Origin: Deltaproteobacteria bacterium
GTDB taxonomy: Bacteria > Desulfobacterota > Desulfobaccia > Desulfobaccales > 0-14-0-80-60-11
Direction of reading: 5' to 3'
Assembly: GCA_030018495.1 (NCBI GenBank)
Contig: JASEFS010000007.1
Location: 1 to 64,000, forward strand
DNA length: 64,000 nt
The first letter of the stretch is position 1; the number at the start of each line of letters is the position of its first letter. Shown here piece by piece: positions 12,072 through 58,819 of this stretch. Position numbers and translations under genes: made by a program. Under the pieces are notes generated by a model that worked only from the letters and a program-made list of their open reading frames with translations, was not told the origin of the DNA and searched no databases.

Positions 12072-12079
12072 ATGAATTC

Positions 12080-39815: not shown

Positions 39816-39856
39816 CGGTATGATGGCAAAGGGAAGATTGTAAGGGGATGGAGACT

Positions 39857-42800
39857 ATGAAATATAGAGACCTGATCCGGTTCGAGCCTATTGAGTCCGT
39901 AGTTCAGTTGCGGGACGCCGATGAAGCGGCTGCCGCCCGACAGCTTGTTGAGACCTATGTCATCTCAGAAGAGATGGCCGAGAAGCTGATAAGCCTTGTC
40001 ATCCCACAACTTCAGTTTGACCAGCCCATGGACAATAAAGGACTTCTGGTCGTTGGGAATTATGGAACCGGGAAATCCCACCTCATGTCGGTGATCTCCG
40101 CTTTAGCCGAAAACGGGGAGCTATCCTCCTATCTGAATGACCGAAATGTGGCCGCTGCAGCAGGTAAAATCGGTGGCTGCTTTAAAGTGGTGCGCACGGA
40201 ATTGGAAGGAATAAAGATGTCCCTCCGGGATTTTATTTGTGGGCATCTTGAGGAAGTTTTCCGTGATTGGGGAGTGGAATTTCAATTTCCCCCGCACGAA
40301 CAAACGCTCAGCCATAAGACCTTGTTCGAAGAGATGATGACAGCATTTCATGAGCAGTTTCCTGATCATGGCCTTCTTTTTGTTGTGGATGAGCTTCTTG
40401 ACTATCTCAACAGCCGTAAGGACCAAGAACTTATTCTGGATTTAAACTTCCTCAGAGTAATCGGCGAGATATGCAAAGATTTGCGTTTCCGGTTCATCGC
40501 CGGTGTCCAAGAAGCCATTTTTGATAGTCCCCGTTTCGCCTTTGTGGCCGACAGCATCCGCCGGGTGAAGGACCGATTTGAGCAAATTCTCATCGCCCGG
40601 AGGGACGTCAAGTTCGTAGTAGCCGAGCGACTACTCAAGAAGACCGGTGAGCAGCAGACTAAAATCCGTGACCACCTCACTCCCTTTGCCAAATTCTATG
40701 GACGTATGAATGAACGTATGGATGAGTTTGTCCGCCTCTTCCCTGTTCATCCAGACTACATTGATGTCTTCGAGCAGATAAGAATTGCCGAAAAACGCGA
40801 AGTCCTTAGAACTCTTTCTCTCGCCATGAAGAAACTGCTTGATAAAGATGTCCCGGATGACCGCCCCGGGCTGATTGCTTACGACAGCTACTGGGCGAAC
40901 TTGCGTGAAAACCCATCTTTTCGTGCTGTTCCAGACATCAGGGCGGTGATCGACTGCAGCCAAGTACTGGAGTCCCGCCTCCAGCAGGCCTTTACCAGGC
41001 CGGCATATAAGCCTATGGCGCTCACAATAATCCATGCCTTATCTGTCCACCGGTTAACCACCGGCGATATATACGCCACCTTGGGTGCGACGGCCGAGGA
41101 ACTGCGTGACGGATTATGCCTGTATCAGCCTGGTATCGAGGACTTGGGCGGCAACCCGGCAGATGATCTGCTTTCCCAGGTGGAGGTTGTTCTTCGAGAA
41201 ATTCATAAAACGGTGAGCGGCCAGTTCATTTCGTCCAACCCGGACAACCGACAATACTATCTCGACCTGAAGAAGACCGATGACTTTGATGCACTCATTG
41301 AAAAGCGTGCTGAGACCCTCGACGACTCGCAGCTTGACCGCTACTACTACGAGGCCCTGAAGCGGGTAATGGAGTGCATCGACCAGACCTATGTCACCGG
41401 CTACAAGATCTGGCAGCACGAACTCGAATGGTTGGAGCGGAAGGCGGCGCGCCAAGGCTACCTGTTTTTCGGGGCGCCAAATGAAAGGTCCACCGCAGTG
41501 CCACCACGCGACTTCTACCTTTACTTTATCCAGCCCTTCGACGCGCCTCACTTCAAGGATGAAAAAAAGCCTGATGAGCTTTTCTTACGCCTGACGAATA
41601 CTGATGAAGCCTTCCGCAGCGCTCTGCGGAACTATGCTGCGGCCCTCGACCTATCTTCCACTGCCTCTGGGCATGCCAAATCTACTTACGAGTCCAAGGC
41701 CTCGAGCTTCCTGCGGGATCTAGTGCTATGGCTACAGAAAAGTATGACCACGGCTTTTGAGGTTACCTATCAGGGGAGGAACAAGTCCCTAACCGAGTGG
41801 GCCAAGGGTAAGTCGATCCGAGAGTTGTCTGGCATTGCCTCCTACGAACGCATCAATTTCCGCGATTTGGTGAACACCATAGCCGGCATCTGCCTTGGGG
41901 CCCATTTCCAGGACCAAGCTCCCGAGTACCCTTTCTTTTCGGTGCTCATTACCGGAGCCAACAGAGCCCAAGCAGCCCAGGACGCCCTGCGGGCCATCGC
42001 TGGGCAGAACCGGACAAAGCAGGCAACCGCAGTGTTAGATGCCCTTGAACTCCTTGACGGAGACCGGCTTGATCCGTACCGGTCGAAGTACGCCAAACAC
42101 ATTCTTGACTTCGTGAACAAGAAGGGACACGGCCAGGTGGTCAACCGCTCCGAGTTGATTCAAGAAGTCCTCGGAGTGGAATACCTTGCCCCGCAGACCA
42201 TGCGACTTGAGCCTGAATGGGCGGTGGTCGTCCTAGCCGCGCTGGTTTACTCCGGCGAGATAGTGCTGGCTATTCCGGGTAAAAAGTTTGATGCCACTGG
42301 TCTTACTCAACTGGCTGGAACAGGAATCGATGAACTGACTCAGTTCAAACACATCGAACGGCCTAAGGACTGGAACTTGCCGGCACTCAAGGCTTTATTC
42401 GAGTTGCTCGGGCTGACGCCGGGCCTGGCCCAATTGGTCACCCAAGGGAAGGAAGAGCCGGTTCAGGAGCTCCAAAAGGCCATAGTAGCGGTGGTGGAAA
42501 GGCTTGTGCTTGCCCAGCAGAACCTACTAACCGGGGTTTTTTTCTGGGGTCGCAATTTGCTGACCGCAGAAGAAATTCAGGGGTTACGTTCCCAGATGGA
42601 TGAGACCAAAAACTTTTTGGAGTTGCTTCAGGCCTACAACTCTCCGGGTAAACTAAAGAATTTCCGCTACGATGTTCAGGAAGTGACCAGTCATCGGGCT
42701 GGGCTCCAGGCTTTAGAAGAGATTGAGTCCTTGCAAGAACTGGTTACTGACCTCGGAGCCACAGCTTCCTATCTCTCTACAGCTGAGGCGGTCTTGCCCA

Positions 42801-43585
42801 TCGGGCATGAATGGATCGATCAAGTGAAGAGAGTGCGAGATGAGGTTCTCGGCCAAATCAGCGACTCTGCCAAGCGAAGCGTAGCAAATTTCCGGCAACA
42901 GACCCAACGTCAGCTTATCGATCTTAAGAAGGCCTATTTACAGTTTTATCTTAGCTTACATACCAAGGCTCGTCTTGGTGTAAACGAAGACAAATTCAAG
43001 GCTCAGCTCATGGTGGATGAGCGTTTGAGGGTTTTGCAGAAGCTTTCCACCATCGACCTTATGCCTCGCCAGCACCTGACCGATTTTCAGAACCGTCTGG
43101 CAGGCCTGAAAAGCTGCTTTGCCCTTACTGAGCCAGAACTTGGCGCCTCACCTGTTTGCCCGCACTGCAGTTATAAACCCGCTGCAGAAGCACTAACGGC
43201 CCCGGCTGGCAAAGTTCTAAACAGCCTGGATGCTGAATTGGACAAGTTGATAGACAACTGGACCCAGACGCTGCTCGCCAATCTGGAGGACCCCACCACT
43301 AAAAGCAATTTGGACCTTCTCAAGCCTGAACCCCGAAAGCTGGTGGATGACTTCATTAAGAGGAGATCATTGCCTGATAAACTGGACCAAGAATTCATCC
43401 AGGCCTTGCAGGAAGTTCTCTCCGGGCTTCTCAAGGTGTCGGTCAAGACCACCGATCTCCGGGCCGCACTGCTCACAGGTGGCTCCCCGGTGACGCCAAC
43501 GGAGATGAGAAAGCGGTTTGAAGAATACTTGGATCAACTCACCAAGGGTAAGGAACCTGAAAAAGTACGGATTGTTTTGGAATGA
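39857..43585 (+). CDS. brxC: BREX protein BrxC/PglY-type large ATPase
   Basis: The 1242-aa protein has Walker [15 protein letters not shown] near residue 60 and a Walker B region [12 protein letters not shown] near residue 175; the rest is long helical repeat with a zinc-knuckle CPHCSYKP near residue 1110. This matches the DUF6079-type BrxC of BREX loci at full length. The ATG at 39857 has GGAG five bases upstream, better than the ATG at 39848. Overlaps the HD gene by four bases. Needed for BREX methylation and phage exclusion in studied systems. Confidence 0.88.
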
Positions 43586-44919
43586 GAGTGATGGGTAAGA
43601 CTTACGAAATTCGAGACCCGATACACGGTTTTATCGAGCTGAATGAATGGGAGCGGGATATCGTTAATCATCCCGTATTTCAGAGGCTACGCCGGATTCG
43701 TCAGCTTGGCCTCACTGACATGGTATATCCAGGCGCCATGCATACCCGTTTCGAACATTCACTCGGTGTCATGCACGTTGCCACAAAAATGTTCGACCAG
43801 ATCGTAAAGCGCCGGCAAGATTTTTTAGAAACAGAGCTTTCTTTCACTGCAGGTGGCCTTGAGAGAGATCGTGTCCTTGTTCGGCTATCATGCCTATTGC
43901 ACGATGCAGGCCATGCTCCATTTTCTCATGCGGCTGAAGGATTGATGGATAAGGATCCGACAACGAACAAGTCTTATAAACATGAAAACTATTCAGCGGC
44001 AGCTGTGGCGTTCTTGATGCAGGATGTGATTGAGAATCACCCGTTAAATCAGAACTACAAAATAACAGCCCAAGAGATTGCTGATTTCCTCAACGGCCGG
44101 GTGGCTCTTGGCCGAGTCCTTCTTTGGCGGAGCCTCGTTTCAAGTCAATTAGACGCCGACCGTGCCGACTACCTGCTCCGTGATTCACATCACATCGGAG
44201 TAGCTTATGGGAGATACGACCTTAACCGCCTATTGGTAACTTTAACCATTGCTTTAGATCCTGAAACCGAATCCCCTGTTTTAGCGATCGAGGATGGAGG
44301 TGTACATGCGGCTGAGGCTCTGATTCTTGCAAGGTACTTCATGTTTACTCAGGTATATTTCCAACATACGAGACGTGCATACGATCACCATTCCGTCCAG
44401 GCTATTAAACATCTCTTGATGGAGGCGCAAAGAGGCGGCGATCTCGCCAACAAAGAAGCCTTTCCTTCGCCAACCTCACGAGAAAATATGGAGCAGTATT
44501 TGAAATGGGATGACTGGCGCGTTCTTGGGATGATTCATCGTGGCCTCGCCAGTGAACATGGTGATATACTATTAAATCGTCAACACCACCGCCGGGTTTT
44601 CGAAACCCCTGAAGTCCCGAATACTTCTGACCTTGAGTTCGCAGAACAAGTTTTCGCAGGATTAGATGACCTTGTAAGTTTCGTGGATAAAGCTGAAAGC
44701 TCTTGGTACAAGTTCGAGTCGGCTGATATCCCGATTTTACTCAGACCAGGCCAGGGTGACGAGGAGCTCACCAAGCTTTCCAGACTGTCCACGGTTGTCA
44801 GTGGTCTGAAAGCCGTCAGCAGAACTCGTGTCTATGTCGCCATTGAAAACAAAGAGGAGGCACTTGAGAGAGTTCGTGTTCTCCGCCAGCAAAAAGAGCA
44901 AAAGGAGGCTCAAGCATGA
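43582..44919 (+). CDS. HD-domain (SAMHD1/YwfO-like) phosphohydrolase
   Basis: The 445-aa protein begins [20 protein letters not shown] and carries [32 protein letters not shown] and [14 protein letters not shown], the H...HD...D metal-binding residues of HD phosphohydrolases related to dNTPases. Such enzymes can remove dNTPs, a recognised antiviral tactic. Overlaps brxC and the next gene by four bases each, so it is co-translated with BREX although not a BREX-3 core gene. The HD-YwgA pairing also exists in Bacillus (ywfO-ywgA). Confidence 0.85.
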
Positions 44920-45491
44920 AAGTCAGTCTGGACATTCCGTGGCAAAGGTATGCGCTCATTGCTGAGCTTGCCCAGCGTTGCGAAGGAAAATGCCCTCAAT
45001 TCGGCAAAACTGTGCTGCAAAAAATGGTGTATCTGCTGCAAGAGGTTTTTCATATTGATTGTGGCTATGATTTTGATATCTACGCCTATGGTCCTTTCAC
45101 CCCTCAGCTCTTGCAAGACCTGGATCTTGTGGAGCACACTGGCGCCGTAAAAATTCATCCTGTTGCGTCCATGACGGGCGGATATGAGATCAGTCCCGGT
45201 GGACAGGCGGCTGCACTTATTCAAAAGGGATCAGACTTTCTCAACAAGGGGGAGGTGAAAAAGGCCATTGAAACCCTGGTTGATGAATTTGGACGCTTTT
45301 GGGCCAAGGACTTGGAGCTTCGCTCAACGATTATCTTCGTACAACGAGATTCTCAAAAGCAGGGAAAACTTCTTTCAGCCGATGACATTGTAGAAATTGT
45401 TAAACAAATAAAGCCCAAATTTACCAATGCGGAAATCCGTGACGCCGTCGAGGAGTTGAAGTCGAAAAAATATTTGGAGCCGGTTGCCTAA
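44916..45491 (+). CDS. YwgA-like protein
   Basis: The 191-aa protein has KTVLQKMVYLLQEVFHIDCGYDF-IYAYGPFTPQLLQDL, the signature of YwgA-family (SocA/Panacea-related) proteins. It overlaps the HD phosphohydrolase gene (ATGA); the pair probably acts as a unit in which YwgA controls or adapts the enzyme. Function of YwgA itself is not established. Confidence 0.65.
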   Translation: MKVSLDIPWQRYALIAELAQRCEGKCPQFGKTVLQKMVYLLQEVFHIDCGYDFDIYAYGPFTPQLLQDLDLVEHTGAVKIHPVASMTGGYEISPGGQAAALIQKGSDFLNKGEVKKAIETLVDEFGRFWAKDLELRSTIIFVQRDSQKQGKLLSADDIVEIVKQIKPKFTNAEIRDAVEELKSKKYLEPVA

Positions 45492-45532: not shown

Positions 45533-45781
45533 ATGAGCAAAGGTAGAGATCGTACAGTTTCTCGCCGCCCTGATGGCACTTGGGAAAACAAGCGAAATGA
45601 TGCCAAGAAAGCATCCAGCCTGCATCAGACCCAGAAAGAAGCAGAACAGGCGGCCAGAGAGATGCTGCGGAAACAAGGTGGAGGAGAGCTGACGACAAAA
45701 GGCCGCGACGGCAAGATAAGGAGCAAGGATACCATAGCGCCCGGCAATGATCCCAATCCGCCCAAGGATACGGAGCATTAG
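45533..45781 (+). CDS. DUF2188 protein (82 aa)
   Basis: RTVSRRPDGTWENKRNDAKKASSLHQTQKEAEQAAREML is the DUF2188 motif, a small basic two-strand-plus-helix fold of unknown role. AAAGGAG precedes the ATG. It lies between the HD/YwgA pair and pglX. Confidence 0.75.
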   Translation: MSKGRDRTVSRRPDGTWENKRNDAKKASSLHQTQKEAEQAAREMLRKQGGGELTTKGRDGKIRSKDTIAPGNDPNPPKDTEH

Positions 45782-45818
45782 CCGAATCGGGGTGAGTCCC
45801 AGAGTCAAGGCGGATGAC

Positions 45819-48650
45819 ATGACAAGTCAAAAGAAAAGCACCGGTCCTTCTGAAAAATTGTTCGCCGAGCCGCAGGCGCACATGTTTGAAAAGTTTTATG
45901 AAGAGAGGATAAAAGAAGGGCAGCACCCCGTGGAATGCCTGGGGATGACATTCCCAGACGATAAGACCCGGCGGCAATATTTCCTTGAAAAATTGCGGGA
46001 GAAGCTGAAGGACCCAAAGTTTCGCAAGATCGAGGGCTTTCCAATCGGGTCGGATGAAGATATCCTTGCTCTGTCCGACCCGCCCTACTACACCGCCTGT
46101 CCTAACCCTTTCATCGAAGATTTTATCAAGCATTACGGCAAGTCCTATGACCCGGCCACCGACACCTATCGCCGGGAGCCCTTTGCCGCGGATGTGAGCG
46201 AAGGGAAGAACGATCCTATTTACAACGCCCATTCCTACCACACCAAAGTGCCCCACAAGGCCATCATGCGGTACATCCTGCATTATACGGAACCAGGAGA
46301 TATTGTTTTTGATGGGTTTTGTGGGACAGGCATGACTGGGGTTGCAGCCCAAATGTGTGCGGACAGAGCTGCTATAGAAGAGCTTAATCTTAGAGTGCAA
46401 AAAGACGGAGTAGTTTCAGATTCGGGTAATTCACAAATCGGTAAAATTGGTTTGCGATATTCTATCCTTTGTGACCTTTCGCCAATCGCATCCTTTGTGG
46501 CTGCTCGATATAACGATTTCCAGCCTCCAACCTTTTCCTCAAGTGCGATGACAAAAATAATCGAAACACTGAAGTCAGAATTTGGTGATTACTACGATAC
46601 AACAGCCCCAGACTCTGGCTTCCCTGGGATCGCTCAATTCTATGTTTGGTCAGAGGTATTTGCCTGTCCTCATTGCGCTTTTTCGGCACCCTTATATGTC
46701 TTTGCTGTTGATATCGCTACTTACAAACTGAAATCCGACTTCTCATGTCCTTCGTGTAATGCGCAACTGACAAAGGAGAATCTGGACAGAGTTTGGACGA
46801 CTTCGATCGATCCCACAAATAATAAGCCTCGAAAAGAAGCACGATGCGAACTCGTTGAAGTCTCTGCTCGGATCAAAAATCGCACGCAGAGGTTCGCTCC
46901 TACGAAATACGATCATGAGAAGCTCGAGAAAATTGTCCGAAAAGGGCTGGCATGGGTACCTTCTGATGAGTTCCCCCATGGCCGGCAAACTCGGAAAGTA
47001 AAATCCGGCTCTGGAATATCGACGATCTCGCAGATGTTTACACCGCGATCATTGGCTATTATAAGCCAGGCGTGGGAATTGATCCTCAAAGATGATATTG
47101 GTAAACGGAGGTTTAATGGACTTTTTCTTTTGTCTTCTGTTCTAACTCTTCTCTCTAGGCGTGAACGTTATAGAGATGGCACTGGGAAAGGGGCCCAGTC
47201 AGGCACACTTTATGTTCCATCACTTCAAATCGAAAAGAATGCGTTTGATGTTATTGAAAGGAAACGGAAATCATTTGAGACCCTTGGACTTAACACTTTT
47301 GCGGGGCACTCAATCGTCACTTGCCAATCTCATGCTGATCTTTTTAATATCCAGGATAACTCTGTTGATTACATATTTACTGATCCACCATTTGGAGAAT
47401 CATTGCAATATGCTGAACTTAACTTTTTTCACGAAGCATGGCTTAGAGTATATACTCAGTTGAAACAGGACTGTGTGTTGAATTATGTACATGGCAAGGA
47501 CCTTCCATTCTATCAAGCCCTCATGATCGGTGCTTTCACCCAGGCTTATAGAATTCTAAAACCTGGAAGATGGATAACCGTTGAGTTTCACAACTCACAG
47601 AATAGTGTATGGATGGCAATACAAGAGGCTCTTTGGAGAGCGGGGTTTACCGTCGCTGACGTTCGTATTCTCGATAAAAAGCAGGGAACATTTAATGTAG
47701 TAAATAGGGCCGGAGCAGTAAAACAAGATCTTGTTATATCAGCATACAAACCTAACGGTGGTCTCGAAGAAAGATTCAAGCTCACGGCTGGGGCTGAAGA
47801 AGGGGTCTGGGACTTCATCCGAGCACATTTGAAGCAACTCCCGGTCTTCGTCACCAAGGACGGCCGGGCCGAGGTCATCGCCGAGCGGCAGAACTACCTG
47901 CTCTTTGACCGCATGGTAGCCTTCCACGTGCAGCGGGGCGTCACCGTGCCCCTGTCCGCCGCGGAGTTCTATCAGGGGCTGGCCCAGCGCTTTCCGGAGC
48001 GGGATGGCATGTATTTTCTCCCTGAGCAGGTGGCGGAGTACGACAAGAAGCGCCTGACGGTAAAGGAGATCATGCAGCTTGAGCTTTTCGTCATCGACGA
48101 ATCATCCGCCATCCAGTGGCTCCGGCAGCAGCTTCTCGCTAAGCCCCAGACCTTCCAGGACCTGCACCCCCAATTCCTCAAGGAAATCGGCGGCTGGCAG
48201 AAGCACGAAAAGCCCTTGGAGCTCTCGGAACTCCTGGCCGACAATTTTCTCCGCTACGAAGGCCAGGGTGAAGTCCCCGGCCAAATCCACAGCTATCTCT
48301 CTTCCAACTTCAAGGAACTGCGCAACCTTCCCAAAGACGACCCGGCCCTGCGGGCCAAGGCCAAGGACCGCTGGTATGTCCCCGATCCCAATAAGGCCAC
48401 CGACCTGGAAAAACTGCGGGAACGGCGACTCCTGAAGGAATTCCAGGAATACCGGGAATCCCCCCAGAAGAAACTCAAGGTCTTCCGGCTGGAAGCAGTG
48501 CGGGCTGGCTTCAAGAAGGCCTGGCAGGAACGGGACTACTCCACCATCATCGAAGTGGCCCGCAAAATCCCGGAAACCATCCTCCACGAAGACCCCAAGC
48601 TCTTGATGTATTACGACCAGGCTCTAACCCGTATGGAAGCAAAAGGATGA
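45819..48650 (+). CDS. pglXI: BREX-3 adenine-specific DNA methyltransferase PglXI
   Basis: The 943-aa protein has SDPPYYTACPNPF near residue 90, IVFDGFCGTGMTGVAA (SAM-binding motif) near residue 170 and FTDPPFGESLQYAEL near residue 520. Zinc knuckles CPHCAF and CPSC lie between. It marks self DNA for BREX. The start at 45819 follows the in-frame stretch from 45747, which lacks support. Base composition changes sharply inside the gene: the segment from about 46300 to 47770 is much AT-richer than both ends, indicating a replaced specificity/catalytic region. Confidence 0.85.
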   Translation: MTSQKKSTGPSEKLFAEPQAHMFEKFYEERIKEGQHPVECLGMTFPDDKTRRQYFLEKLREKLKDPKFRKIEGFPIGSDEDILALSDPPYYTACPNPFIEDFIKHYGKSYDPATDTYRREPFAADVSEGKNDPIYNAHSYHTKVPHKAIMRYILHYTEPGDIVFDGFCGTGMTGVAAQMCADRAAIEELNLRVQKDGVVSDSGNSQIGKIGLRYSILCDLSPIASFVAARYNDFQPPTFSSSAMTKIIETLKSEFGDYYDTTAPDSGFPGIAQFYVWSEVFACPHCAFSAPLYVFAVDIATYKLKSDFSCPSCNAQLTKENLDRVWTTSIDPTNNKPRKEARCELVEVSARIKNRTQRFAPTKYDHEKLEKIVRKGLAWVPSDEFPHGRQTRKVKSGSGISTISQMFTPRSLAIISQAWELILKDDIGKRRFNGLFLLSSVLTLLSRRERYRDGTGKGAQSGTLYVPSLQIEKNAFDVIERKRKSFETLGLNTFAGHSIVTCQSHADLFNIQDNSVDYIFTDPPFGESLQYAELNFFHEAWLRVYTQLKQDCVLNYVHGKDLPFYQALMIGAFTQAYRILKPGRWITVEFHNSQNSVWMAIQEALWRAGFTVADVRILDKKQGTFNVVNRAGAVKQDLVISAYKPNGGLEERFKLTAGAEEGVWDFIRAHLKQLPVFVTKDGRAEVIAERQNYLLFDRMVAFHVQRGVTVPLSAAEFYQGLAQRFPERDGMYFLPEQVAEYDKKRLTVKEIMQLELFVIDESSAIQWLRQQLLAKPQTFQDLHPQFLKEIGGWQKHEKPLELSELLADNFLRYEGQGEVPGQIHSYLSSNFKELRNLPKDDPALRAKAKDRWYVPDPNKATDLEKLRERRLLKEFQEYRESPQKKLKVFRLEAVRAGFKKAWQERDYSTIIEVARKIPETILHEDPKLLMYYDQALTRMEAKG

Positions 48651-50731
48651 AACAGCAGGCCTTGACCCTGTTACGCCAGGCTTTGGCTCAGCCGGAAGCA
48701 ACTTTTCGCGCGGGTCAATGGGAAGCTATCTCCGCCCTTGTCCAGGATAATTCTCAGCTATTAGTGGTGCAGCGCACCGGCTGGGGAAAAAGTGTGGTGT
48801 ATTTTCTGGCCACCCGGTTGCTGCGGGACCAGGGTAAGGGCCCGACTCTCTTAATTTCCCCTTTGCTGGCCTTGATGCGCAACCAGGTGGAGATGGCGGA
48901 GCGCCTGGGGGTCAGAGCGGCAACCATCAATTCCACCAACCGGGAGGAATGGAAGGAAATCCAGGCTCGTCTCCTGGGAGGCGACGTGGATATCCTGCTG
49001 GTGTCGCCTGAGAGACTGGCCAATGACGAGTTCCGTGAACAGGTGCTCATGCCCCTGGCCGGCGCCATCGGCCTGTTTGTGGTGGATGAGGCCCACTGCA
49101 TCTCTGACTGGGGACATGATTTTCGCCCGGACTATCGCCGGATTACCCGGATATTGCAGGCATTGCCGCCCAATATCCCGGTCTTGGCAACCACCGCCAC
49201 CGCCAATGACCGGGTGGTTAATGATGTTCAAACACAACTGGGGCCGCGGTTGATCTTGCTCCGTGGTCCTCTTGGCCGGGCCAGTTTGCGCTTGCAGAAT
49301 ATTCATCTCCCCAGCCAGGCGGCCAGGATGGCCTGGCTGGCCGAGCATTTGCCGGCTCTCCCCGGCTCCGGCATTATTTACACACTAACCATTCGGGATG
49401 CTCAGCGGCTGGCCACCTGGTTACAATCGGAAGGGATCCAGGCTTTTGCTTACTGGGGAGGATTGGATAACGACAGCCGGGTGGATTTGGAACAGAAGCT
49501 GCTCGACAACCGCATCAAAGCTTTGGTAGCCACCAGCGCCCTGGGAATGGGCTTCGACAAACCGGACCTGGGCTTTGTTATCCACTTCCAGCGCCCGGGG
49601 TCAGTGGTGCATTATTACCAGCAGGTGGGCCGGGCCGGCCGCGCTCTGGATGAGGCTTACGGCATCATGTTAAGCGGCGCCGAGGACGAGGATATCACCG
49701 ACTATTTCATAAGAACCGCGTTCCCTCCCGAAGGGCATACCCGGGAAGTATTAGCGGCTTTGAACGACGCAGAAGATGGACTTAGCTTGCCCAAACTGGA
49801 AGGGTGCTTGAATTTAAGACGGGGCCAGATAGAAAAGGTGTTAAAAGTTCTCGCAGTAGAAACCCCGGCCCCCATAGTGAAGCGGGGCTCACGCTGGTAT
49901 GCCACGGCAATTACCTATACTCCTGACGATGCCAAGATAACTCGCCTTACCGAAATTCGCCGACAAGAACAGGCGAGGATGCGCGAATATCTGAGCAGCT
50001 CATCTTGTCTTATGGCCTTCTTAGGACAGGAACTTGATGATCCCGAGGCGGAAGCCTGTGGGCGATGTTCGCCATGTGTGGGGCAACCCTTATTACCCGA
50101 AGGTTATTCCTTGGGGACAGCCAACCGGGCTGTAGAATTCTTGCGACGCAATTATCAGGTGATTGAGCCCCGCAAGCAGTGGCCAGGCGATGCCTTAATA
50201 GCCCAAGGATGGCAAGGGACCATCCCTGCCAGTTTGCGGACTGAAGAAGGACGCGCTCTCTGTCTCTGGGGAGACGCCGGCTGGGGAGAATTGGTGAAAC
50301 AGGGCAAACAGGTGCAGGGGCGTTTCGCCGACGAGTTGGTTGCTGGAGTAGTGGATATGGTAAAAAATCGCTGGCAACCCACACCGTTTCCGACTTGGGT
50401 GACTTGCGTGCCCTCCTTGAATCACCCCACTCTGGTGCCCGACTTTGCACTGCGGGTGGCTGAGGCGCTGGCCTTACCTTTTATACCCTGTGTAGAAAAA
50501 TTGCGGTCTACCCGCCCACAGAAGCAGATGCAAAACAGTTATCAGCAGGCTAATAACCTGGCTGGTGCTTATACCGTGAGAAAAGAGCAGATACAAAAAG
50601 GTCCGGTTTTCCTAGTAGATGACATGGTCGACTCCCGCTGGACGATGACAGTCATCGCTGCCCTCTTGCGAGAGGCTGGGGCAGGTCTCGTCTTCCCTTT
50701 GGCACTGGCACTGACCACAGCGGCGGAGTGA
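48647..50731 (+). CDS. RecQ-type helicase fused to a phosphoribosyltransferase domain
   Basis: Residues about 15-340 are a RecQ/DEAH helicase: QRTGWGKSVVYFL (Walker A), VVDEAHCISDWGHDFRPDYRR, ATTATA, and the motif VI region QQVGRAGRALDEA. A zinc site follows (CLMAFL ... CGRCSPC). The C-terminal 150 residues resemble a PRTase, with a PRPP-binding loop VFLVDDMVDSRWTMTVIA. The start overlaps the pglX stop by four bases. Paired with a DprA-like gene three bases downstream. A nucleotide-sensing or DNA-degrading defence role is inferred. Confidence 0.85.
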   Translation: MKQQALTLLRQALAQPEATFRAGQWEAISALVQDNSQLLVVQRTGWGKSVVYFLATRLLRDQGKGPTLLISPLLALMRNQVEMAERLGVRAATINSTNREEWKEIQARLLGGDVDILLVSPERLANDEFREQVLMPLAGAIGLFVVDEAHCISDWGHDFRPDYRRITRILQALPPNIPVLATTATANDRVVNDVQTQLGPRLILLRGPLGRASLRLQNIHLPSQAARMAWLAEHLPALPGSGIIYTLTIRDAQRLATWLQSEGIQAFAYWGGLDNDSRVDLEQKLLDNRIKALVATSALGMGFDKPDLGFVIHFQRPGSVVHYYQQVGRAGRALDEAYGIMLSGAEDEDITDYFIRTAFPPEGHTREVLAALNDAEDGLSLPKLEGCLNLRRGQIEKVLKVLAVETPAPIVKRGSRWYATAITYTPDDAKITRLTEIRRQEQARMREYLSSSSCLMAFLGQELDDPEAEACGRCSPCVGQPLLPEGYSLGTANRAVEFLRRNYQVIEPRKQWPGDALIAQGWQGTIPASLRTEEGRALCLWGDAGWGELVKQGKQVQGRFADELVAGVVDMVKNRWQPTPFPTWVTCVPSLNHPTLVPDFALRVAEALALPFIPCVEKLRSTRPQKQMQNSYQQANNLAGAYTVRKEQIQKGPVFLVDDMVDSRWTMTVIAALLREAGAGLVFPLALALTTAAE

Positions 50732-50734
50732 AAA

Positions 50735-52042
50735 ATGTCAAGAGAAAGCCATATCCTCAGCCCGGACACCCAGGCGGTTCTATTGCTCTGTGCCAACTTT
50801 GAGGCGAAATCCGATTCAGGGGTAAAACCGCTGACGTTAGCACAATACAACCGTCTGGCAAGTTGGCTCCGTAATCAACATCTTCGCCCTGGTGATTTGC
50901 TCCACCAAGAAGGAGTGGAAAAATTACGCCAGTCAATGGATCAACTTAAAGAGGCGGAAGAGGCTTTAAAGCTTTTGGCGAGGGGCGTGGCCATGGCTTT
51001 GGCGGTGGAGAAATGGACCAATCAAGGAATCTGGGTCCTGAGCCGCAGTGATATGGAATACCCGAGACGTTTTAAGGATCGCTTGAAACAAAATTCTCCG
51101 CCTATACTTTTTGGTGCTGGTATCAAGAATCTGTTAGCAAGAGGAGGGCTGGCCGTAATCGGATCACGGCACGCCGATGAAAAGGCCTTAGAATTCACCC
51201 GTAAGATTGGCCAGCGCTGCGCCCTAGAGAATATTCAGGTCATTTCAGGCGGCGCTAAAGGTGTGGATCAAGAGGCGATGCTGGCGGCTTTGGCCCAGGG
51301 GGGTGAGGTTATTGGCATTCTTTCGGATAACCTAGGGAGGGCAACGGTCTCGGGCAAGTACCGCCAAGCAATCCGTGATGGCCAATTAGTGCTTCTCTCT
51401 GCCTGTGCTCCCGAGACCCGCTTTCAGGTAGGTAATGCCATGGCCCGGAATAAGCTAATTTATGCCTTATCAGATTGGGCCCTGGTGGTCAGCACTGAGA
51501 CTGAAAAAGGAGGCACCTGGACGGGCGCCTTGGAGAATCTTAAGTATAACTGGGTCCCACTATTGGTGCGAGATGGTGCAGATGTTTCGTCCAGTAACAA
51601 GAGGCTCATTAAAGAAGGTGCCAATCCCTTAAATCAGGGGAAGGTCCTTCAACATATAGGAGGATTGAAAGACCTCCTTCAGCAGGCATCAATCCAGAAA
51701 GAATCGGCGGTTCCCGAAGAATCAGGATTAGGCGCACATGCTGGAAGGGCAGTAGATGCATCACAAAGACACCACCTCCTCAATGAGTTTGGGAAAGGAG
51801 CCTTACATCAAGTCGATGCCGATTATTTCTGGGATCACCAGGTCTGGCCAGCAATCTCTAATATACTGCGATCCCAAAGCAGGCTGACTGTCAGTCAACT
51901 TGCGAAGGACTTGGGGATTGAAAAGTCACAAGCCAAGGCGTGGCTCAAACGAGCCTCGGAGGAACAAAAGGTTAAGAAATTAACAAGACCGGAACGATAC
52001 GTAGCTCCTGAATTTGGGCAGAGGTCATTACTCGATGAGTAA
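50735..52042 (+). CDS. DprA/SLOG-like protein with C-terminal winged helix
   Basis: The 435-aa protein has a DprA-type Rossmann core: LARGGLAVIGSRHA, VISGGAKGVDQEAMLAAL, and VGNAMARNKLIYALSDWALVV with GGTWTGALE. A C-terminal winged-helix (SRLTVSQLAKDLGIEKSQAKAWL) follows. DprA belongs to the SLOG fold group, proposed to bind nucleotide-type ligands or single-stranded DNA. It is genetically coupled to the RecQ-PRTase gene, suggesting one two-protein system. Confidence 0.85.
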   Translation: MSRESHILSPDTQAVLLLCANFEAKSDSGVKPLTLAQYNRLASWLRNQHLRPGDLLHQEGVEKLRQSMDQLKEAEEALKLLARGVAMALAVEKWTNQGIWVLSRSDMEYPRRFKDRLKQNSPPILFGAGIKNLLARGGLAVIGSRHADEKALEFTRKIGQRCALENIQVISGGAKGVDQEAMLAALAQGGEVIGILSDNLGRATVSGKYRQAIRDGQLVLLSACAPETRFQVGNAMARNKLIYALSDWALVVSTETEKGGTWTGALENLKYNWVPLLVRDGADVSSSNKRLIKEGANPLNQGKVLQHIGGLKDLLQQASIQKESAVPEESGLGAHAGRAVDASQRHHLLNEFGKGALHQVDADYFWDHQVWPAISNILRSQSRLTVSQLAKDLGIEKSQAKAWLKRASEEQKVKKLTRPERYVAPEFGQRSLLDE

Positions 52043-52220: not shown

Positions 52221-53981
52221 ATGCATGCCCATGACCGCTTTCTTCCGGAGTGGTTCAACCGCATCCGCTCTCGGCAGATCACCCTGCCTCGGTTTCAACG
52301 CTTCGTGGCGTGGAGCCATAATGAAGTCTCTGGGTTACTGACCACGGTTATCCGGGGACTCCCTTCTGGCTCCACACTTATCTTAGAAGTCGGTGATGAT
52401 GAGAAGTTTAAGAGCCGCACCATGGTAGATGCACCCGAGTCCGGCGAGAAAGTCACCGAGCAGCTCCTGGACGGCCAGCAACGGCTAACAGCCTTGTGGC
52501 GCAGCCTTCAGGATAAATATCCTGATCGTACCTACCTGATTGGGTTTGAGGAAGACCCCAGCAACTCCGGTGATAAGCTTCCGTATGTGTATGGCCAGGC
52601 CCGTTGGACTAAAAACGGTACAATTTATCCTATGTGGGTGGATGATCCCCATGAGTGCTGGAAAAGAGGATTTATTCCCATAAAGCTGTTGCGGCCAGAG
52701 GATATTCTCCCGGAAATTCGCCAATGGATTAATGAGGCGGTCAAAGGAGATCATGAACAAAAGGATGCGCTCTTCGATGAGGTCATCGCTCTACGCGACC
52801 GAGTGAAGGCGTTCAACCTGCCTTATCTGGCTTTGCCAGCCAAGACGCAAAAGGAAGTCGCCCTGGATGTTTTTATCAAGATGAACACCAGCTCGGTACG
52901 ACTATCGACTTATGACATTGTCGTGGCCCTCGTGGAAGAAGAAACGGGCAAGTCGCTGCATGATCACGTAGAGGCCTTGGCGGCGGCGGTCCCCAGGGCG
53001 GCTGATTATGGTGATCTGCCGGGATTGGTGCTCGATGTAGTGGCTCTGAGGCAGGACCGTATTCCCAGTCAGGCAGGCTACCGGGGAATTGATTACACCA
53101 AAATGATTGAAGAATGGGATAAAGTAGTCCAGGGCATCCGGGGTATGGTCAGTTTCCTGGAAGACGAAAGCATTTTCGATGCCCAGAGATTACCAAGTTA
53201 TCCCGCCATCCCGCTAATTGCAGCGCTATGGGAGATTCTTCCCACTCAGCCGGACAAACTTGGGAACGCCAGGCATGCGCTGCGGAAGTTTCTCTGGCGG
53301 GCCTTTCTAACCTCTCGTTACGAGCAATCTTCGACAACCAATGCTTTGCAGGATTACCGGGGTCTAAAGCAAATAATTTTGGGAGCCGGAGATGAAAGCA
53401 CTGTCCCGATTTTTAATGAGTCGTCTTACCCTTTGCCTGGCAAGGAGTTGATACTTCAAGCTGATTGGCCTAGACGAAAGACGATTTTAGGGCGAGGCCT
53501 GCTGGCCCTACAACTTAAAGCCGGAGCAGAAGATCTTGCAGACGGAGCCAAGGCCACTGTGGGAAGCATTACCTCCAAAGAACATCCGAGGGAGTATCAT
53601 CATCTTTTTCCCGAATCACTCCTGGAAAATGCTGAAATTCCTGGAGAGCAGATATATCGGGCGATGAATTGCGCTCTCATCACCTGGCGTACCAACAGGG
53701 CAATTTCTGGGAAGGATCCTGTCACCTATCTGAAAGAGCGCGCAGATAATGCTGCCCTGGGAGAAGAGGATTTACGTCGCCGTCTGAAAACTCACTTGAT
53801 TCCTTATAAGCAGATAGCTGTGGGCTATGATGGTATTACTGCTGATGAAAGGAAGAACAAAATCAAGGCTGATTATGGGGCTTTCTTAGAGGCCAGAGCA
53901 GCATTGTTGGCCAAGGCAGCACAAGTCATATGTGAAGGACGGCCATTGGACCTGAATATACTGGTTGATGGAACTAATTGA
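52221..53981 (+). CDS. DUF262/DUF1524 protein, GmrSD/BrxU-like nuclease
   Basis: The 586-aa protein begins with a DUF262 (ParB-like) domain: LPRFQRFVAWSHNEVSGLL, IRGLPSGSTL and QLLDGQQRLTALWRSL near residue 80. The C-terminal region has EYHHLFPESLL, the His-Me (HNH-type) DUF1524 signature. This two-domain layout is that of GmrSD type IV enzymes and of BrxU, which cut modified DNA and can accompany BREX. Overlaps brxHII by 14 bases, so it is integrated in the operon. Confidence 0.82.
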   Translation: MHAHDRFLPEWFNRIRSRQITLPRFQRFVAWSHNEVSGLLTTVIRGLPSGSTLILEVGDDEKFKSRTMVDAPESGEKVTEQLLDGQQRLTALWRSLQDKYPDRTYLIGFEEDPSNSGDKLPYVYGQARWTKNGTIYPMWVDDPHECWKRGFIPIKLLRPEDILPEIRQWINEAVKGDHEQKDALFDEVIALRDRVKAFNLPYLALPAKTQKEVALDVFIKMNTSSVRLSTYDIVVALVEEETGKSLHDHVEALAAAVPRAADYGDLPGLVLDVVALRQDRIPSQAGYRGIDYTKMIEEWDKVVQGIRGMVSFLEDESIFDAQRLPSYPAIPLIAALWEILPTQPDKLGNARHALRKFLWRAFLTSRYEQSSTTNALQDYRGLKQIILGAGDESTVPIFNESSYPLPGKELILQADWPRRKTILGRGLLALQLKAGAEDLADGAKATVGSITSKEHPREYHHLFPESLLENAEIPGEQIYRAMNCALITWRTNRAISGKDPVTYLKERADNAALGEEDLRRRLKTHLIPYKQIAVGYDGITADERKNKIKADYGAFLEARAALLAKAAQVICEGRPLDLNILVDGTN

Positions 53982-56820
53982 GAACAACAAATGGCGCTAC
54001 TGCCCGGATTTTGGGCAGCTGTGCCTCATAATTGAGTCCCAAACACTCTGGGGCGAGCAAACTTGCCGCGTCTGGCTGCCAAGCCAAGATACGATAGTAC
54101 GCCTGCCGGTTTCTCGGCTCAAGTCCTTGGAAGAAGTTGGCATCTGCACCGCCGATGGAATAGTTTATGTGGTCGCAGCAGCTCGGGTGTCTGAGGCACT
54201 GACTCAGGACGTGCTGCTCGCTCCCATCGAATCTTCCGTTATCCCGCTTCCACATCAGATTAGGGCCCTGTCCCACGCCATTGCCAACGACCGCGTGCGC
54301 TATCTACTGGCGGACGAGGTCGGGCTTGGCAAGACCATTGAGGCAGGGCTCATCATGCGGGAGCTCAAGTTGCGCGGATTAGTGCAGCGGACGCTGGTAA
54401 TAGCCCCTAGGGGGTTAGTAACCCAGTGGGTTAGCGAAATGCGCTTCCACTTCGGAGAGACATTTCAGCTCGTGCTACCTGAAGACCTGAGGACTATGAA
54501 ACGCATGGCGCCGATTTCGGGCTCGGGTAACGAGAGACCCGGTACCCGCTTTCAAGAACTTCAGAAGGCCAATGCTTGGCAGATGTTCTCCCAGGTGGTT
54601 GTGCCAATGGATTCCGTAAAACCCCTGGACAAACGCCGTGGGTGGACGGCAACGCAGGTAGAGGAATATAACCGGGACCGTTTCGAGGACTTGATTTCCG
54701 CCGGATGGGACCTTGTTATAGTGGACGAGGCTCATCGTCTGGGTGGGAGCACCGATCAGGTGGCCCGCTTCAAACTGGGGCAGGGGTTATCGGAGGCGGC
54801 CCCCTATTTCCTGCTTCTATCGGCCACTCCTCATCAGGGCAAGACCGACGCTTTTCATCGGCTGTTGTCCCTGATAGACGCCCAAGCTTTCCCAGAGATC
54901 AGTAGCGTTACTCGTGAGCGGGTCAAGCCGTATGTGATCAGGACGGAAAAACGCCATGCTATCGACGTCGAAGGAAACCCTTTATTCAAACCTCGGCGCA
55001 CCCAGCTTGCTCCGGTCTCCTGGGAAGAGCGACACCGTGATCAGCAGCTCCTTTATGAAGCCGTCACGGGATATGTCCGCGAGGGATATAACCAAGCCAT
55101 ACGCGAGAAACGGAGCTACATTGGGTTCTTGATGATCCTGATGCAGCGCCTAGTGGTTTCAAGCACGAGAGCCATACGAACGACGCTCCAAAAAAGACTT
55201 CAGGCGCTAGCTGCCCCCCCGGAGCAACTGTCTCTATTTCCCCTCTATTCTGAAGACGAATGGGCCGATCTGGATGCCCAGGAGCAGATGGAAGCGTTGC
55301 TCCGCACCCATCTCAAGGCCCTCAAGAACGAGCGAGCCGAGGTAAAGCTGCTCCTGGAAGCTGCCGCTCACTGCGAACAAGCCGGGGCTGATGTGAAGGC
55401 TGAGGCTTTGCTTGATTGGATTTACCGCCTACAGTCAGAGGAAGGTGACCCGGACCTAAAAGTGCTCCTGTTCACCGAGTTCGTCCCCACCCAGCAAATG
55501 CTGCTGCAGTTCCTCACCGAGCGAGGCTTCAAGGTCGTTTGTCTTAACGGTTCCATGGATTTGGAAGAGCGTAAAAAGGCCCAGGAAGCTTTTGCCCGCG
55601 AGGCTCGCATCCTCATTTCTACGGATGCCGGCGGAGAGGGCTTGAACCTGCAATTCTGCCATGTCGTGATCAACTACGACATTCCCTGGAACCCCATGCG
55701 GCTGGAGCAGCGCATCGGCCGCGTAGACCGTATCGGTCAGACTCATACGGTGCGAGCAGTCAACTTCGTTTTCCAGGGCTCGGTAGAACACCGTGTTCAT
55801 GAAGTCCTGGAACAAAAACTGGCAGTTATTTTTGAGGAATTCGGCATCGACAAAACCGCCGATGTTCTCGACTCGGCCCAGGCCGGTCGGATGTTCGATG
55901 ACCTCTATGTGGAGGCTATTCTTCATCCTGACAAGGTTGAGGACTCCGTGGATAGCCTAGTCACACGAATTCAGGAACAGGTACGAGAAGCCCGGGAAAC
56001 TGCATCGGTGCTCGGTATCTCGGAAGATTTGGACCCAAGTGAAGCAGAGCGGTTTATGAGCCACCCCTTGCCCCATTGGGTTGAGCGCATGACTGTGAGT
56101 TTTCTTTTGGCCCATGGCGGCAAGGCTGAGAAAAAAGATCGATGCTGGAATCTCACTTGGCCGAATGGCGAGATGTATTCCGGCGTGGTTTTTACGGGAA
56201 AAGAAGCCGAGGGTAACCATACCGCCCGCCACCTAACGCTAGAAGATCCAAGGGTCCGCAGTCTGGCGATGAGGATCCCACGCTTCATCCCGGGGCAACC
56301 TGTTCCAAATGTATTGGTTCCAGGCATCTCTCGGGAAATCACAGGATTCTGGTCTCTCTGGCGAATCGCCATCGTCACTTCTGAGTGGAATCGCCATCGC
56401 ATTATGCCTTTCTTCCTGGGCGATAACGGCAAGGTCTTAATACCAACGGCCCGGCATATCTGGGATCAACTCCTGATAGCCAGCCCAGTATTTCACAGAA
56501 CGCTCGATATGGGGTTTTCTCAAGACGCTTTCGAACAAATGCGGCAGGCAGCCGAGGAACATGGACAACCGATTTACGCAACGCTTGTTCAACAACATCG
56601 TGCCAGCATCGACCGAGAGCGAGAGAAGGCAGAGTACGCCTTTACAGCGCGGCGCAAAGCCATTGAGCGAATCGGCCTTTCACAGGTCCGAAGCTACCGC
56701 CTGAACCTTCTGGCCGAGGAAGAGCGCAGCTTTCAAGAAAAGCTTGAGCACAAGTCTAAAGTATATCCCGAGATGTTGCCTTTACTTATGATTCGTGTGG
56801 AAGGCGGCAGTCATGAGTAG
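53968..56820 (+). CDS. brxHII: BREX-3 SNF2-type helicase BrxHII
   Basis: The 950-aa helicase has LADEVGLGKTIEAGLIM (Walker A) near residue 110, VIVDEAHRLGG near residue 250, LLLSATPHQGK, STDAGGEGLNLQFC and QRIGRVDRIGQTH (motif VI) near residue 590. The C-terminal 300 residues are helical. It is the characteristic helicase between pglX and pglZ in BREX type 3. Start at the ATG at 53968. Confidence 0.85.
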   Translation: MELIENNKWRYCPDFGQLCLIIESQTLWGEQTCRVWLPSQDTIVRLPVSRLKSLEEVGICTADGIVYVVAAARVSEALTQDVLLAPIESSVIPLPHQIRALSHAIANDRVRYLLADEVGLGKTIEAGLIMRELKLRGLVQRTLVIAPRGLVTQWVSEMRFHFGETFQLVLPEDLRTMKRMAPISGSGNERPGTRFQELQKANAWQMFSQVVVPMDSVKPLDKRRGWTATQVEEYNRDRFEDLISAGWDLVIVDEAHRLGGSTDQVARFKLGQGLSEAAPYFLLLSATPHQGKTDAFHRLLSLIDAQAFPEISSVTRERVKPYVIRTEKRHAIDVEGNPLFKPRRTQLAPVSWEERHRDQQLLYEAVTGYVREGYNQAIREKRSYIGFLMILMQRLVVSSTRAIRTTLQKRLQALAAPPEQLSLFPLYSEDEWADLDAQEQMEALLRTHLKALKNERAEVKLLLEAAAHCEQAGADVKAEALLDWIYRLQSEEGDPDLKVLLFTEFVPTQQMLLQFLTERGFKVVCLNGSMDLEERKKAQEAFAREARILISTDAGGEGLNLQFCHVVINYDIPWNPMRLEQRIGRVDRIGQTHTVRAVNFVFQGSVEHRVHEVLEQKLAVIFEEFGIDKTADVLDSAQAGRMFDDLYVEAILHPDKVEDSVDSLVTRIQEQVREARETASVLGISEDLDPSEAERFMSHPLPHWVERMTVSFLLAHGGKAEKKDRCWNLTWPNGEMYSGVVFTGKEAEGNHTARHLTLEDPRVRSLAMRIPRFIPGQPVPNVLVPGISREITGFWSLWRIAIVTSEWNRHRIMPFFLGDNGKVLIPTARHIWDQLLIASPVFHRTLDMGFSQDAFEQMRQAAEEHGQPIYATLVQQHRASIDREREKAEYAFTARRKAIERIGLSQVRSYRLNLLAEEERSFQEKLEHKSKVYPEMLPLLMIRVEGGSHE

Positions 56821-58819
56821 TTGGCGCGATCAGATCCTGAAGGAATTTACCCCAAAGGTATCTAGGCTCACTCTAGTGGCGGATCCAGATAGTCTCTTGC
56901 TTGAGGAAAAGATTCTTGAAGGTATTCGGGAACAAGGCTTCGAACTAATTCCCTTCGAGGATCACGTCGCGTTCCGTTACGCTTATGAATCGAAGTTCCG
57001 CTCCCGATGGGACCGGGGCGAAGAGACAGACCTCGTGGTTGTATTGCGTTCCCAGGCCAGCGATCTCGGCTCCCTGCCTTATGACCTCCTGGAGAGCGGC
57101 CGCAGGCTCTCCTTTAATCTTGGGAAGATTTTCCCCAATCTCAGCTATCCTGTCCTTGCCGCTCTTGACCGCGGCGACCTTGATATCCTGTATGAGGCCC
57201 AGAAGAGGCATACACCTGGTCATCTAGGTGACAACGCCACAAAGGAATTTGTCCTCCGTCACCTCTTTGAAATCGCGCCGGAGCTTATCAAACAGCCAAC
57301 CGACCTGTTGCGGGTTCTCCTCCGACGCCATTACCGCGGTCTGCGAATTCCGGCTATTCTCGACGAAAGGTTCATCCAGCTCCTTCGCCAAGACAACACA
57401 TTTGAAGGCTGGCCGATTGAGACCCTTATCTCGGACCGAGAGGCCTTCTTCACATTCCTTCAGGAGCGCTGGCCGATCTTCCTCAATAGCAAAGTCACCA
57501 AAGAAGAAACTGGCGCTCGAGAAGACGAAAAGCCCTACGGCTTGGCCATCAAGGGGCCCGTCGATCTACCCTTCGATCACCATGACATCCGTGTCTACAT
57601 GGACAGTTTGTTCCTCGAGGGATTGCTCCACTCCGTATCCCACGAGCATGCGGATATCCTTACCAAGACTTGGGTCCGCATCGGCATTCGAACCGATCCA
57701 TCCGAAGACAGGTCTCGCCGTCTTAACATGCTCATCGAGAATCTGCAGGCATCCATCCCGTCCGAGGATGCCAGGCATGGGGATTGGCTCCACTTCGCCC
57801 GTGGGTGGGCGGAGCTGTCCCTGCAGGTCCATGAGCAGGTAGACGACACCAACCAAACAGCACCTCAAAGCCTAAAATACCTTCAGACCCAGGTGGATGC
57901 CGCGTTCACGTCGTGGTTAGCGAGGCGGTACGCTGGGCTTGTCAACTTGCCACCTGTTCCCCCAGTCATGCTCCATCACATTCCCCGGTTTCTATCGCGT
58001 CGGGTAGGAGAAAACCGGAACTGCAAGATGGCCTTACTCTTGGTGGATGGACTTTCTTTTGACCAATGGCTTGTTATGCGTGAGGGACTTGTTTCCCGGC
58101 GGCCACATCTCATCTTCCGGGAGAACGCAGTGTTTGCCTGGATACCGACGATCACTTCGGTATCCCGCCAAGCCGCCTTTGCTGGCCGACCTCCTTTCTT
58201 TTTTCCGAACAGCATCCAGATTACCGACAAGGAGTCGGCCCTTTGGATTCAGTTCTGGGCGGACCAAGGGCTTTCCCAGAACCAAGTCGTTTACGTCAGA
58301 GGTTTGGGCGACGGGGGCTTGAATAGTGTCGAAGAAGTCCTTTCTCATTCCCAAGTAAGAGTTGCCGGGTTGGTCATCGATAAGGTCGACAAGATCATGC
58401 ATGGTATGGAATTGGGCGCAACTGGTATGCATAATCAGGTACGTCAATGGGCTCAGCAGCCTTACATGGTTGCGCTTCTGGATTTACTTCTGGATCGGCA
58501 TTTCTGTGTTTTCCTTACTTCGGATCACGGCAATATTGAGGCTGAAGGCTGTGGACGTCCTGCTGAAGGGTTGGTCGCTGATCTGCGCGGTGAGCGGGTT
58601 CGCGTTTACTCTGATGCGCTATTGCGCAACAAAGTTCAGGAGCGATTCCCAAGCGCTATTAAATGGCCACCGGTCGGTCTTCCCGAAGATTACTTGCCGC
58701 TGATTGCTCCTGGCCGGTTGGCATTTGTCCGGGAGGGGGAGCAGATCGTCAGTCACGGCGGCCTTTCCATTGAGGAGCTCATTGTCCCACTCGTTCAAAT
58801 CGAGAGGAGGGATACATGA
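56813..58819 (+). CDS. pglZ: BREX protein PglZ, alkaline-phosphatase-superfamily
   Basis: The 668-aa protein has MALLLVDGLSFDQWLVM near residue 405 (metal site), ITSVSRQAAFAGRPP and LTSDHGNIEAEG near residue 570, the metal-binding order of the PglZ domain. Start at the ATG at 56813 overlapping brxHII by eight bases. PglZ is the invariant BREX component; nuclease or phosphodiesterase activity is reported for the family. Confidence 0.9.
   Translation: MSSWRDQILKEFTPKVSRLTLVADPDSLLLEEKILEGIREQGFELIPFEDHVAFRYAYESKFRSRWDRGEETDLVVVLRSQASDLGSLPYDLLESGRRLSFNLGKIFPNLSYPVLAALDRGDLDILYEAQKRHTPGHLGDNATKEFVLRHLFEIAPELIKQPTDLLRVLLRRHYRGLRIPAILDERFIQLLRQDNTFEGWPIETLISDREAFFTFLQERWPIFLNSKVTKEETGAREDEKPYGLAIKGPVDLPFDHHDIRVYMDSLFLEGLLHSVSHEHADILTKTWVRIGIRTDPSEDRSRRLNMLIENLQASIPSEDARHGDWLHFARGWAELSLQVHEQVDDTNQTAPQSLKYLQTQVDAAFTSWLARRYAGLVNLPPVPPVMLHHIPRFLSRRVGENRNCKMALLLVDGLSFDQWLVMREGLVSRRPHLIFRENAVFAWIPTITSVSRQAAFAGRPPFFFPNSIQITDKESALWIQFWADQGLSQNQVVYVRGLGDGGLNSVEEVLSHSQVRVAGLVIDKVDKIMHGMELGATGMHNQVRQWAQQPYMVALLDLLLDRHFCVFLTSDHGNIEAEGCGRPAEGLVADLRGERVRVYSDALLRNKVQERFPSAIKWPPVGLPEDYLPLIAPGRLAFVREGEQIVSHGGLSIEELIVPLVQIERRDT

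Follow-up and report, generated by a model that had tools for sequence, protein, structure and literature searches.

What is a RecQ-type helicase gene with a phosphoribosyltransferase (PRTase) domain, followed at once by a DprA-like gene, doing in the middle of a BREX operon that is itself carried by a prophage? The question is raised by positions 48647-52042 of the stretch analyzed here, a window of 64,000 nucleotides (positions 1 to 64,000) of contig JASEFS010000007.1 from a Desulfobacterota bacterium, and it concerns in the first place the following genes and parts of genes, among them the loop that binds phosphoribosyl pyrophosphate (PRPP) and a helix-turn-helix (HTH).

48647..50731, plus strand: psyrT/rqlH, a RecQ-type helicase with a C-terminal PRTase domain, the predicted toxin (694 amino acids; PADLOC PsyrT).
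50006..50077, plus strand: Cys4-like site of the PsyrT helicase, placed by the cysteine positions C454, C471, C474, and C477.
50087..50728, plus strand: C-terminal PRTase domain of PsyrT, residues 481-694, placed by an AlphaFold model and its structural matches.
50606..50650, plus strand: PRPP-binding loop VFLVDDMVDSRWTMT, residues 654-668, placed by conserved residues and the RqlH alignment.
50735..52042, plus strand: psyrA/rqlI, a DprA/SLOG protein, the predicted antitoxin or restrainer (435 amino acids; PADLOC PsyrA).
51890..52003, plus strand: C-terminal winged HTH of PsyrA (model helices 386-393 and 397-409, strands 414-423).

A sequence-only reading, made earlier from the letters of this DNA, had described the two genes as a coupled system for which no mechanism had been characterized. 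It is partly supported: the architecture and the coupling were right, but the uncharacterized status was wrong and is ruled out by the PADLOC matches to PsyrTA and by the literature on RqlH/RqlI (PMC4670107). As judged from sequences and models, the pair almost certainly belongs to PsyrTA (the same as RqlH/RqlI), an established toxin-antitoxin family; the assignment follows from identity with RqlH/RqlI, the published RqlHI genetics, and the matching residues. A claim of a new mechanism is thus corrected to membership of a known family, and what is new here is context only, namely PsyrTA within a complete type-3 BREX operon on a prophage, both the system and this kind of site being known. Within that operon the pair probably forms an abortive toxin-antitoxin backup layer, an estimate from which any BREX-specific link is excluded.

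The sequence features that mark the family are present: a RecQ-type helicase that carries a PRTase at its C-terminus, and an adjacent downstream DprA/SLOG partner with a C-terminal HTH. The PADLOC model PsyrT matches the product of 48647..50731 over residues 2-692 at E 1.5e-299, and the helicase domains are recognized by Pfam DEAD (E 3.7e-25) and Helicase_C (5e-16) and by NCBIfam recQ (1.9e-86). The start of psyrT overlaps the end of pglXI by 4 nucleotides, and a gap of 3 nucleotides separates it from psyrA. PsyrT is not a canonical RecQ; its score with the TIGR01389 equivalog, 290.8 bits, falls short of the cut-off of 640.2, the C-terminus is a PRTase, and canonical RecQ and DpdF both score far under the PsyrT model. 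The Cys4-like site that had been pointed out is present with its four cysteines, although Pfam RecQ_Zn_bind matches it weakly (E 0.087); because it is missing, in the alignment, from the full-length homologues L006 and L022, it is not essential to the PsyrT family and was dropped as a defining feature. A tblastn search with PsyrT of the phage collection returned partial RecQ-type matches only, none covering at least 80% of the query.

By sequence the PRTase domain is matched only weakly (Pfam Pribosyltran, E 0.026), and the call of the sequence-only reading for a structure prediction was therefore justified. The AlphaFold model of residues 481-694 (214 residues), for which the input was 51 sequences from the window and the fetched loci, has a mean predicted local distance difference test (pLDDT) of 95.4 and a predicted template modeling score (pTM) of 0.90. 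Its best structural match is ComF of H. pylori (Z 15.3, root-mean-square deviation 5.7, 176 residues); ShosT gives Z 11.6 in the phosphate form and Z 11.5 with PRPP-Mg, and adenine PRTases (APRT) and PurF give Z ~10. The C-terminus of PsyrT, as modeled, is a ComF/ShosT-like PRTase fold, and helicase motifs and a PRPP loop do occur in one chain, as had been noticed. Within the loop, the Asp-Asp pair D658/D659 and W665 are invariant and D662 is near-invariant in one alignment (A2), and the Asp-Asp is invariant in the other (A1) too; in a wider set of homologues, DE takes its place in one row.

The partner fits too. The product of 50735..52042 is matched by PADLOC PsyrA at E 6.7e-134 and by ShosA at 8e-27, and Pfam DprA (DNA_processg_A) matches it at 4.5e-36. 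Its structure model (pLDDT 88.5) aligns with DprA (3maj, Z 26.2; 3uqz, Z 25.6) and with the ShosA antitoxin (8zva, Z 25.0), whereas the match to the SLOG ligand-sensor ThsA is far lower (Z ~10.5). Pfam HTH matches at the C-terminus are weak, and the winged helix is seen in the model; the description of a DprA-like gene with a winged helix, 3 nucleotides on, was thus accurate.

What such a pair does can be taken, by homology, from E. coli. The CFT073 proteins are 54% (RqlH/PsyrT) and 38% (RqlI/PsyrA) identical to those of the window over nearly their full length. In extraintestinal pathogenic E. coli, RqlH without RqlI was toxic and SOS-inducing, and the toxicity was abolished by deleting the PRTase or by the PRPP-loop substitution D663A; the helicase-dead K49A or D148A proteins raised SOS and cost viability, which was restored in K49A+D663A, and RqlI physically binds and restrains RqlH, so that the genotoxic PRTase is kept down by the helicase as well as by the partner (Russell and Mulvey 2015, PMC4670107). 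RqlH K49 (the Walker A Lys), D148 (the DEAH Asp), and D663 (the PRPP-loop Asp) correspond to K48, D147, and D659 in PsyrT, and all are conserved; the mapping used CFT073 RqlH (698 amino acids, the published length) in place of F11 RqlH. By analogy, the PRTase is very probably the toxic effector of PsyrT.

In an uninfected cell the PsyrT-PsyrA complex would be silent. Phage DNA metabolism might then occupy or disturb the DNA-binding parts of the helicase or of the DprA protein, releasing the PRTase, which would use PRPP, damage or starve DNA synthesis, and halt the infected cell, i.e., abortive infection. An anti-phage abortive role of this kind is likely. The position behind a methyltransferase gene would give co-expression with BREX, and phages that evade or inhibit BREX would thus still face a suicide response. 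That BREX or restriction-modification (RM) components silence PsyrTA, and that their inhibition triggers it, is speculative; a specific link of PsyrTA to BREX failure is only possible, and we are inclined to doubt it.

The host operon is, by its sequence, a complete type-3 BREX, with brxF, brxC, pglXI, brxH, pglZ, and brxA all present in order; the full arrangement is brxF–brxC–[HD protein, DarG-like protein]–pglXI–[psyrT–psyrA–DUF262]–brxH–pglZ–brxA.

39267..39815, plus strand: brxF (PADLOC BrxF, E 1.1e-65).
39848..43585, plus strand: brxC, with DUF6079 (PADLOC BrxC, E 0; Pfam DUF6079).
43582..44919, plus strand: HD-domain accessory protein between brxC and pglXI (Pfam HD, 7e-9, and HD_assoc_2).
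44916..45491, plus strand: accessory protein of 191 amino acids resembling the C-terminal half of DarG (PADLOC DarG, E 1.6e-11, profile positions 165-328 of 329).
45747..48650, plus strand: pglXI methyltransferase, directly upstream of psyrT (PADLOC PglXI, E 0).
52221..53981, plus strand: DUF262/GmrSD_N accessory protein adjoining psyrA (Pfam GmrSD_N, 5.6e-20).
53965..56820, plus strand: brxH, an SNF2 helicase (PADLOC BrxHI/BrxHII, E 0).
56795..58819, plus strand: pglZ (PADLOC PglZ, E 0).
58816..59571, plus strand: brxA, the last core gene (PADLOC BrxA, E 1.8e-102).
59657..59679, plus strand: terminator-like hairpin at the operon end, a 9-bp stem followed by a T run (a consensus match only).

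The strongest terminator-like site on the plus strand is the one after brxA. Annotated plasmid copies of type-3 BREX have the same core order, with pglXI directly before the helicase gene, and the pglXI/brxH junction is where loci of the same phylum vary: non-core genes directly follow pglXI in 16 of 17 type-3 BREX loci (L236-L252), although in 3 of the 16 the contig stops before the next core gene. Among the occupants, which are mostly unrelated to one another, are Gabija, IetAS (in four loci), SIR2–HerA, an AbiU-like protein, a HamB-like helicase, and a SIR2/ThsA-like protein. The slot is thus variable, and PsyrTA is one of its tenants. The same slot holds, in three genomes, a protein of ~450 amino acids that is 72-83% identical among them (L236:6623-7969, L245:2957-4303, and L251:13813-15207). 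It had no PADLOC match when the L245 copy was scanned, and it is a candidate new defence gene.

How often the pair occurs, and how often it is embedded, was surveyed in eighty genomic loci together with plasmid, viral, and further genome loci, 109 in total. The helicase-PRTase and the DprA partner are adjacent in 68 of the 109, far above chance, and the coupling of the two genes proposed from the letters thus held up; the pair was also found outside BREX. Together with the modeled PRTase fold, this means that neither of the outcomes named by the sequence-only reading as refuting it came about. The 41 loci with no partner are mostly actinobacterial or haloarchaeal, with a few at contig ends. 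Same-strand BREX, Hma/DUF499, or type I RM genes flank the pair on both sides in 9 and on one side in 11 of the 68 paired loci, the window being a tenth two-sided case, and adjoin 0 of the 41 partnerless ones; these counts depend on sampling, include near-duplicates and truncated contigs, and use labels assigned by blastp to reference proteins. The arrangements are hsdM–hsdS–[psyrTA]–hsdR in E. coli (3 genomes looked at of 53 with the allele; 1 plasmid), Vibrio furnissii, and Providencia; pglX–[psyrTA–DUF262]–pglZ in Acinetobacter, a type-1 BREX; and hmaB–[psyrTA]–hmaC in Pseudomonas and one Verrucomicrobium. The PsyrT tree needs six state changes for 6 BREX rows, seven for 11 RM rows, and three for 4 Hma rows, and embedding therefore appears to have been gained several times or repeatedly lost, between which the tree cannot separate. 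PsyrT copies of the nearest relatives (85-87% identical) are not beside BREX genes on the contigs examined; the relatives' BREX contigs (L164, L187, and L188) end too soon to show whether PsyrTA is there.

Two further patterns emerged from the survey. A second recurrent layout has a WYL regulator and then psyrTA heading a type I RM operon (L213, L214, L215, and L006; Pseudomonas and a viral contig). The actinobacterial and haloarchaeal RqlH homologues (L074-L105) have neither a DprA partner nor, by the reference set used, BREX, Hma, or RM neighbors, which suggests from their sequences a different role, perhaps housekeeping.

Is PsyrTA tied to BREX at all? The pglXI/brxH junction could simply be a landing site for any co-expressed defence module, with no mechanistic link to BREX, and we regard this as an even bet; it is compatible with an abortive backup layer, the sole difference being the BREX link. 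The mostly unrelated genes after pglXI in 16 of 17 phylum loci, and the PsyrT copies of 85-87% identity outside BREX in relatives, speak for it, but PsyrTA recurs in type-1 BREX, Hma, and type I RM, often right behind the methyltransferase or specificity gene, which looks over-targeted for a random tenant. The opposite possibility is that PsyrTA is silenced by, or senses, the modification or restriction proteins and fires when a phage blocks them, much as the anticodon nuclease PrrC, in its hsdM-hsdS-prrC-hsdR locus, stands guard over a restriction system. By this analogy PsyrTA could plausibly act as a guard of BREX, if on balance doubtfully. It would agree with the matching slots hsdM-hsdS/psyrTA/hsdR, hmaB/psyrTA/hmaC, pglX/psyrTA/..pglZ, and pglXI/psyrTA/..brxH, with the repeated state changes on the tree for all three kinds of operon, and with the complete absence of embedding in the 41 partnerless loci. 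The likeness to PrrC is, however, an analogy, two-sided flanking is seen in just 9 of the 68 loci with a partner and in the window, and CFT073 rqlHI stands alone in the gntU/yhgN interval; the PrrC-like position itself (between specificity gene and nuclease) is seen in several homologues, and the window has only the analogous slot, pglXI/brxH. A stronger version is unlikely: the junction behind the methyltransferase or specificity gene of BREX, Hma, and type I RM would be a dedicated guard slot that PsyrTA entered repeatedly, where it would be silenced by intact self-marking machinery and would fire its PRTase once a phage disables that machinery.

The pair might instead be a DNA-repair or recombination accessory, a competence-like analogue of ComF plus DprA rather than a defence system, which is improbable: the PRTase is indeed nearest to ComF (Z 15.3) and the partner to DprA, and orphan RqlH is common in Actinobacteria, but the recurrent embedding in defence operons, the prophage location, and the toxicity data for RqlHI all argue otherwise. 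Very improbable is the suggestion of the sequence-only reading of a nucleotide ligand that the PRTase would make or consume and the SLOG/DprA protein would sense, while the helicase acts on invading DNA; nothing here supports a diffusible ligand. A PRTase fold with a PRPP loop, and a SLOG fold common to PsyrA and the ligand-sensing ThsA (Z ~10.5), count in its favor, and a paper of 2017 (PMC5512222) already put forward a similar idea, of a PRTase making or sensing a nucleotide. However, the folds nearest to that of PsyrA are the antitoxin ShosA and the single-stranded-DNA-binding DprA, at Z 25-26 and so far over ThsA. By the RqlHI genetics, moreover, the PRTase is the toxic part and the partner restrains it, which is the opposite of a SLOG effector fed by a ligand-maker.

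The reading that we prefer, an abortive backup layer co-expressed with BREX, is favored by the tight operon spacing and by the homologues that lie within BREX, Hma, and RM operons. Several points weigh against it. The roles given to the pair here rest on homology and structure. Classical PRPP loops have Gly at a position that is Arg, Lys, Ala, or Thr in a large share of homologues, the window PsyrT included, and for that reason the catalytic detail may differ and catalysis by the PsyrT PRTase may be altered. Most paired copies examined lie outside any methylation system, and many PsyrT/RqlH genes, chiefly actinobacterial, have no partner, which means that not every helicase-PRTase is a toxin.

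The operon sits in a prophage of ~89 kb at a tRNA-Ala gene, running from 12025-12073 to 101433-101481 of the contig (C59), beyond the window.

12025..12073, plus strand: attL, a 49-bp repeat that is the 3' end of tRNA-Ala, repeated exactly at C59:101433-101481.
12086-13132: prophage integrase, beside tRNA-Ala.

Other prophage genes encode a CI-like repressor, ParB, portal, prohead protease, and capsid. A search of 50,697 phage records turned up no relative of type-3 BrxC, and a prophage-borne type-3 BREX thus looks unusual; a scan of viral contigs, made with a pattern from one sequence and therefore of limited sensitivity, gave none either. In related prophages from the same class, the region upstream of the portal gene (36849-59807 in the window) holds different cargo: an AAA ATPase (L182), a type I RM system (L186), a DUF499/DUF1156/PLD-helicase system (L185), or heavy-metal efflux genes (L180 and L184). 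The far side of the cargo is marked by the same PDDEXK nuclease gene in L182 and L186, and in L180, L184, and L185 this flank was not seen. A second defence system, SngABC (Shango), occupies the interval between the tail genes and attR of the same prophage (L225 634-7924; C59:82634-89924); after it come genes for a UvrD-like helicase, a DruK-like PDDEXK protein, and a WYL regulator.

The comparative data pose the question of why differing methylation-based defence operons repeatedly take suicide modules right behind the self-marking gene, and the related one of whether such modules guard their host system. The interest that remains lies in the embedding and in the PRTase substrate, a question that the PsyrTA family could answer.

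Set beside known systems, the window pair has the gene order and domains of CFT073 RqlH/RqlI, but CFT073 rqlHI lies alone between gntU and yhgN, whereas the window pair lies within the BREX operon of a prophage. PsyrTA of Pseudomonas syringae, reportedly from work of Sberro et al. in 2013, is the system named in PADLOC, and the window pair matches both its models, PsyrT and PsyrA, at full length. ShosTA, as far as its entries PDB 8zva-8zvd tell, likewise pairs a PRTase toxin with a DprA-like antitoxin; the window PRTase is fused to a RecQ helicase, whereas ShosT appears to have none, judging from the 8zvc chain (~424 amino acids) and its name, and the identity between ShosT and the window PRTase is just ~9%. 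RqlH of M. smegmatis, as related in later papers, is a RecQ-like 3'-5' helicase with a C-terminal PRTase (Ordonez et al. 2012, via PMC4670107 and PMC5512222) and so resembles window PsyrT in architecture, but the actinobacterial homologues examined mostly have no DprA partner, whereas the window has one. A P2 phage carries a DprA plus PRTase system that shields E. coli against both T7 and lambda (PMC9122126), which counts in favor of the abortive reading. Published work has already taken up the embedding of defence modules (PMC12255303, PMC12839542). Neither main text names PsyrTA, and that of the 2026 BREX survey mentions no RecQ, PRTase, DprA, or PsyrT; we make no priority claim for the embedding of PsyrTA. 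A 2024 preprint by Payne et al., cited in this literature, is said to deal with embedded defence modules as well. The closest parallels in position are DarTG2, which lies within a type I RM system between hsdS and hsdR (the RptR island, PMC12255303), and the backup effectors embedded in BREX (PMC12839542): in each, as here, a toxin-antitoxin or effector module is lodged within a methylation-system operon, and it is the toxins that differ.

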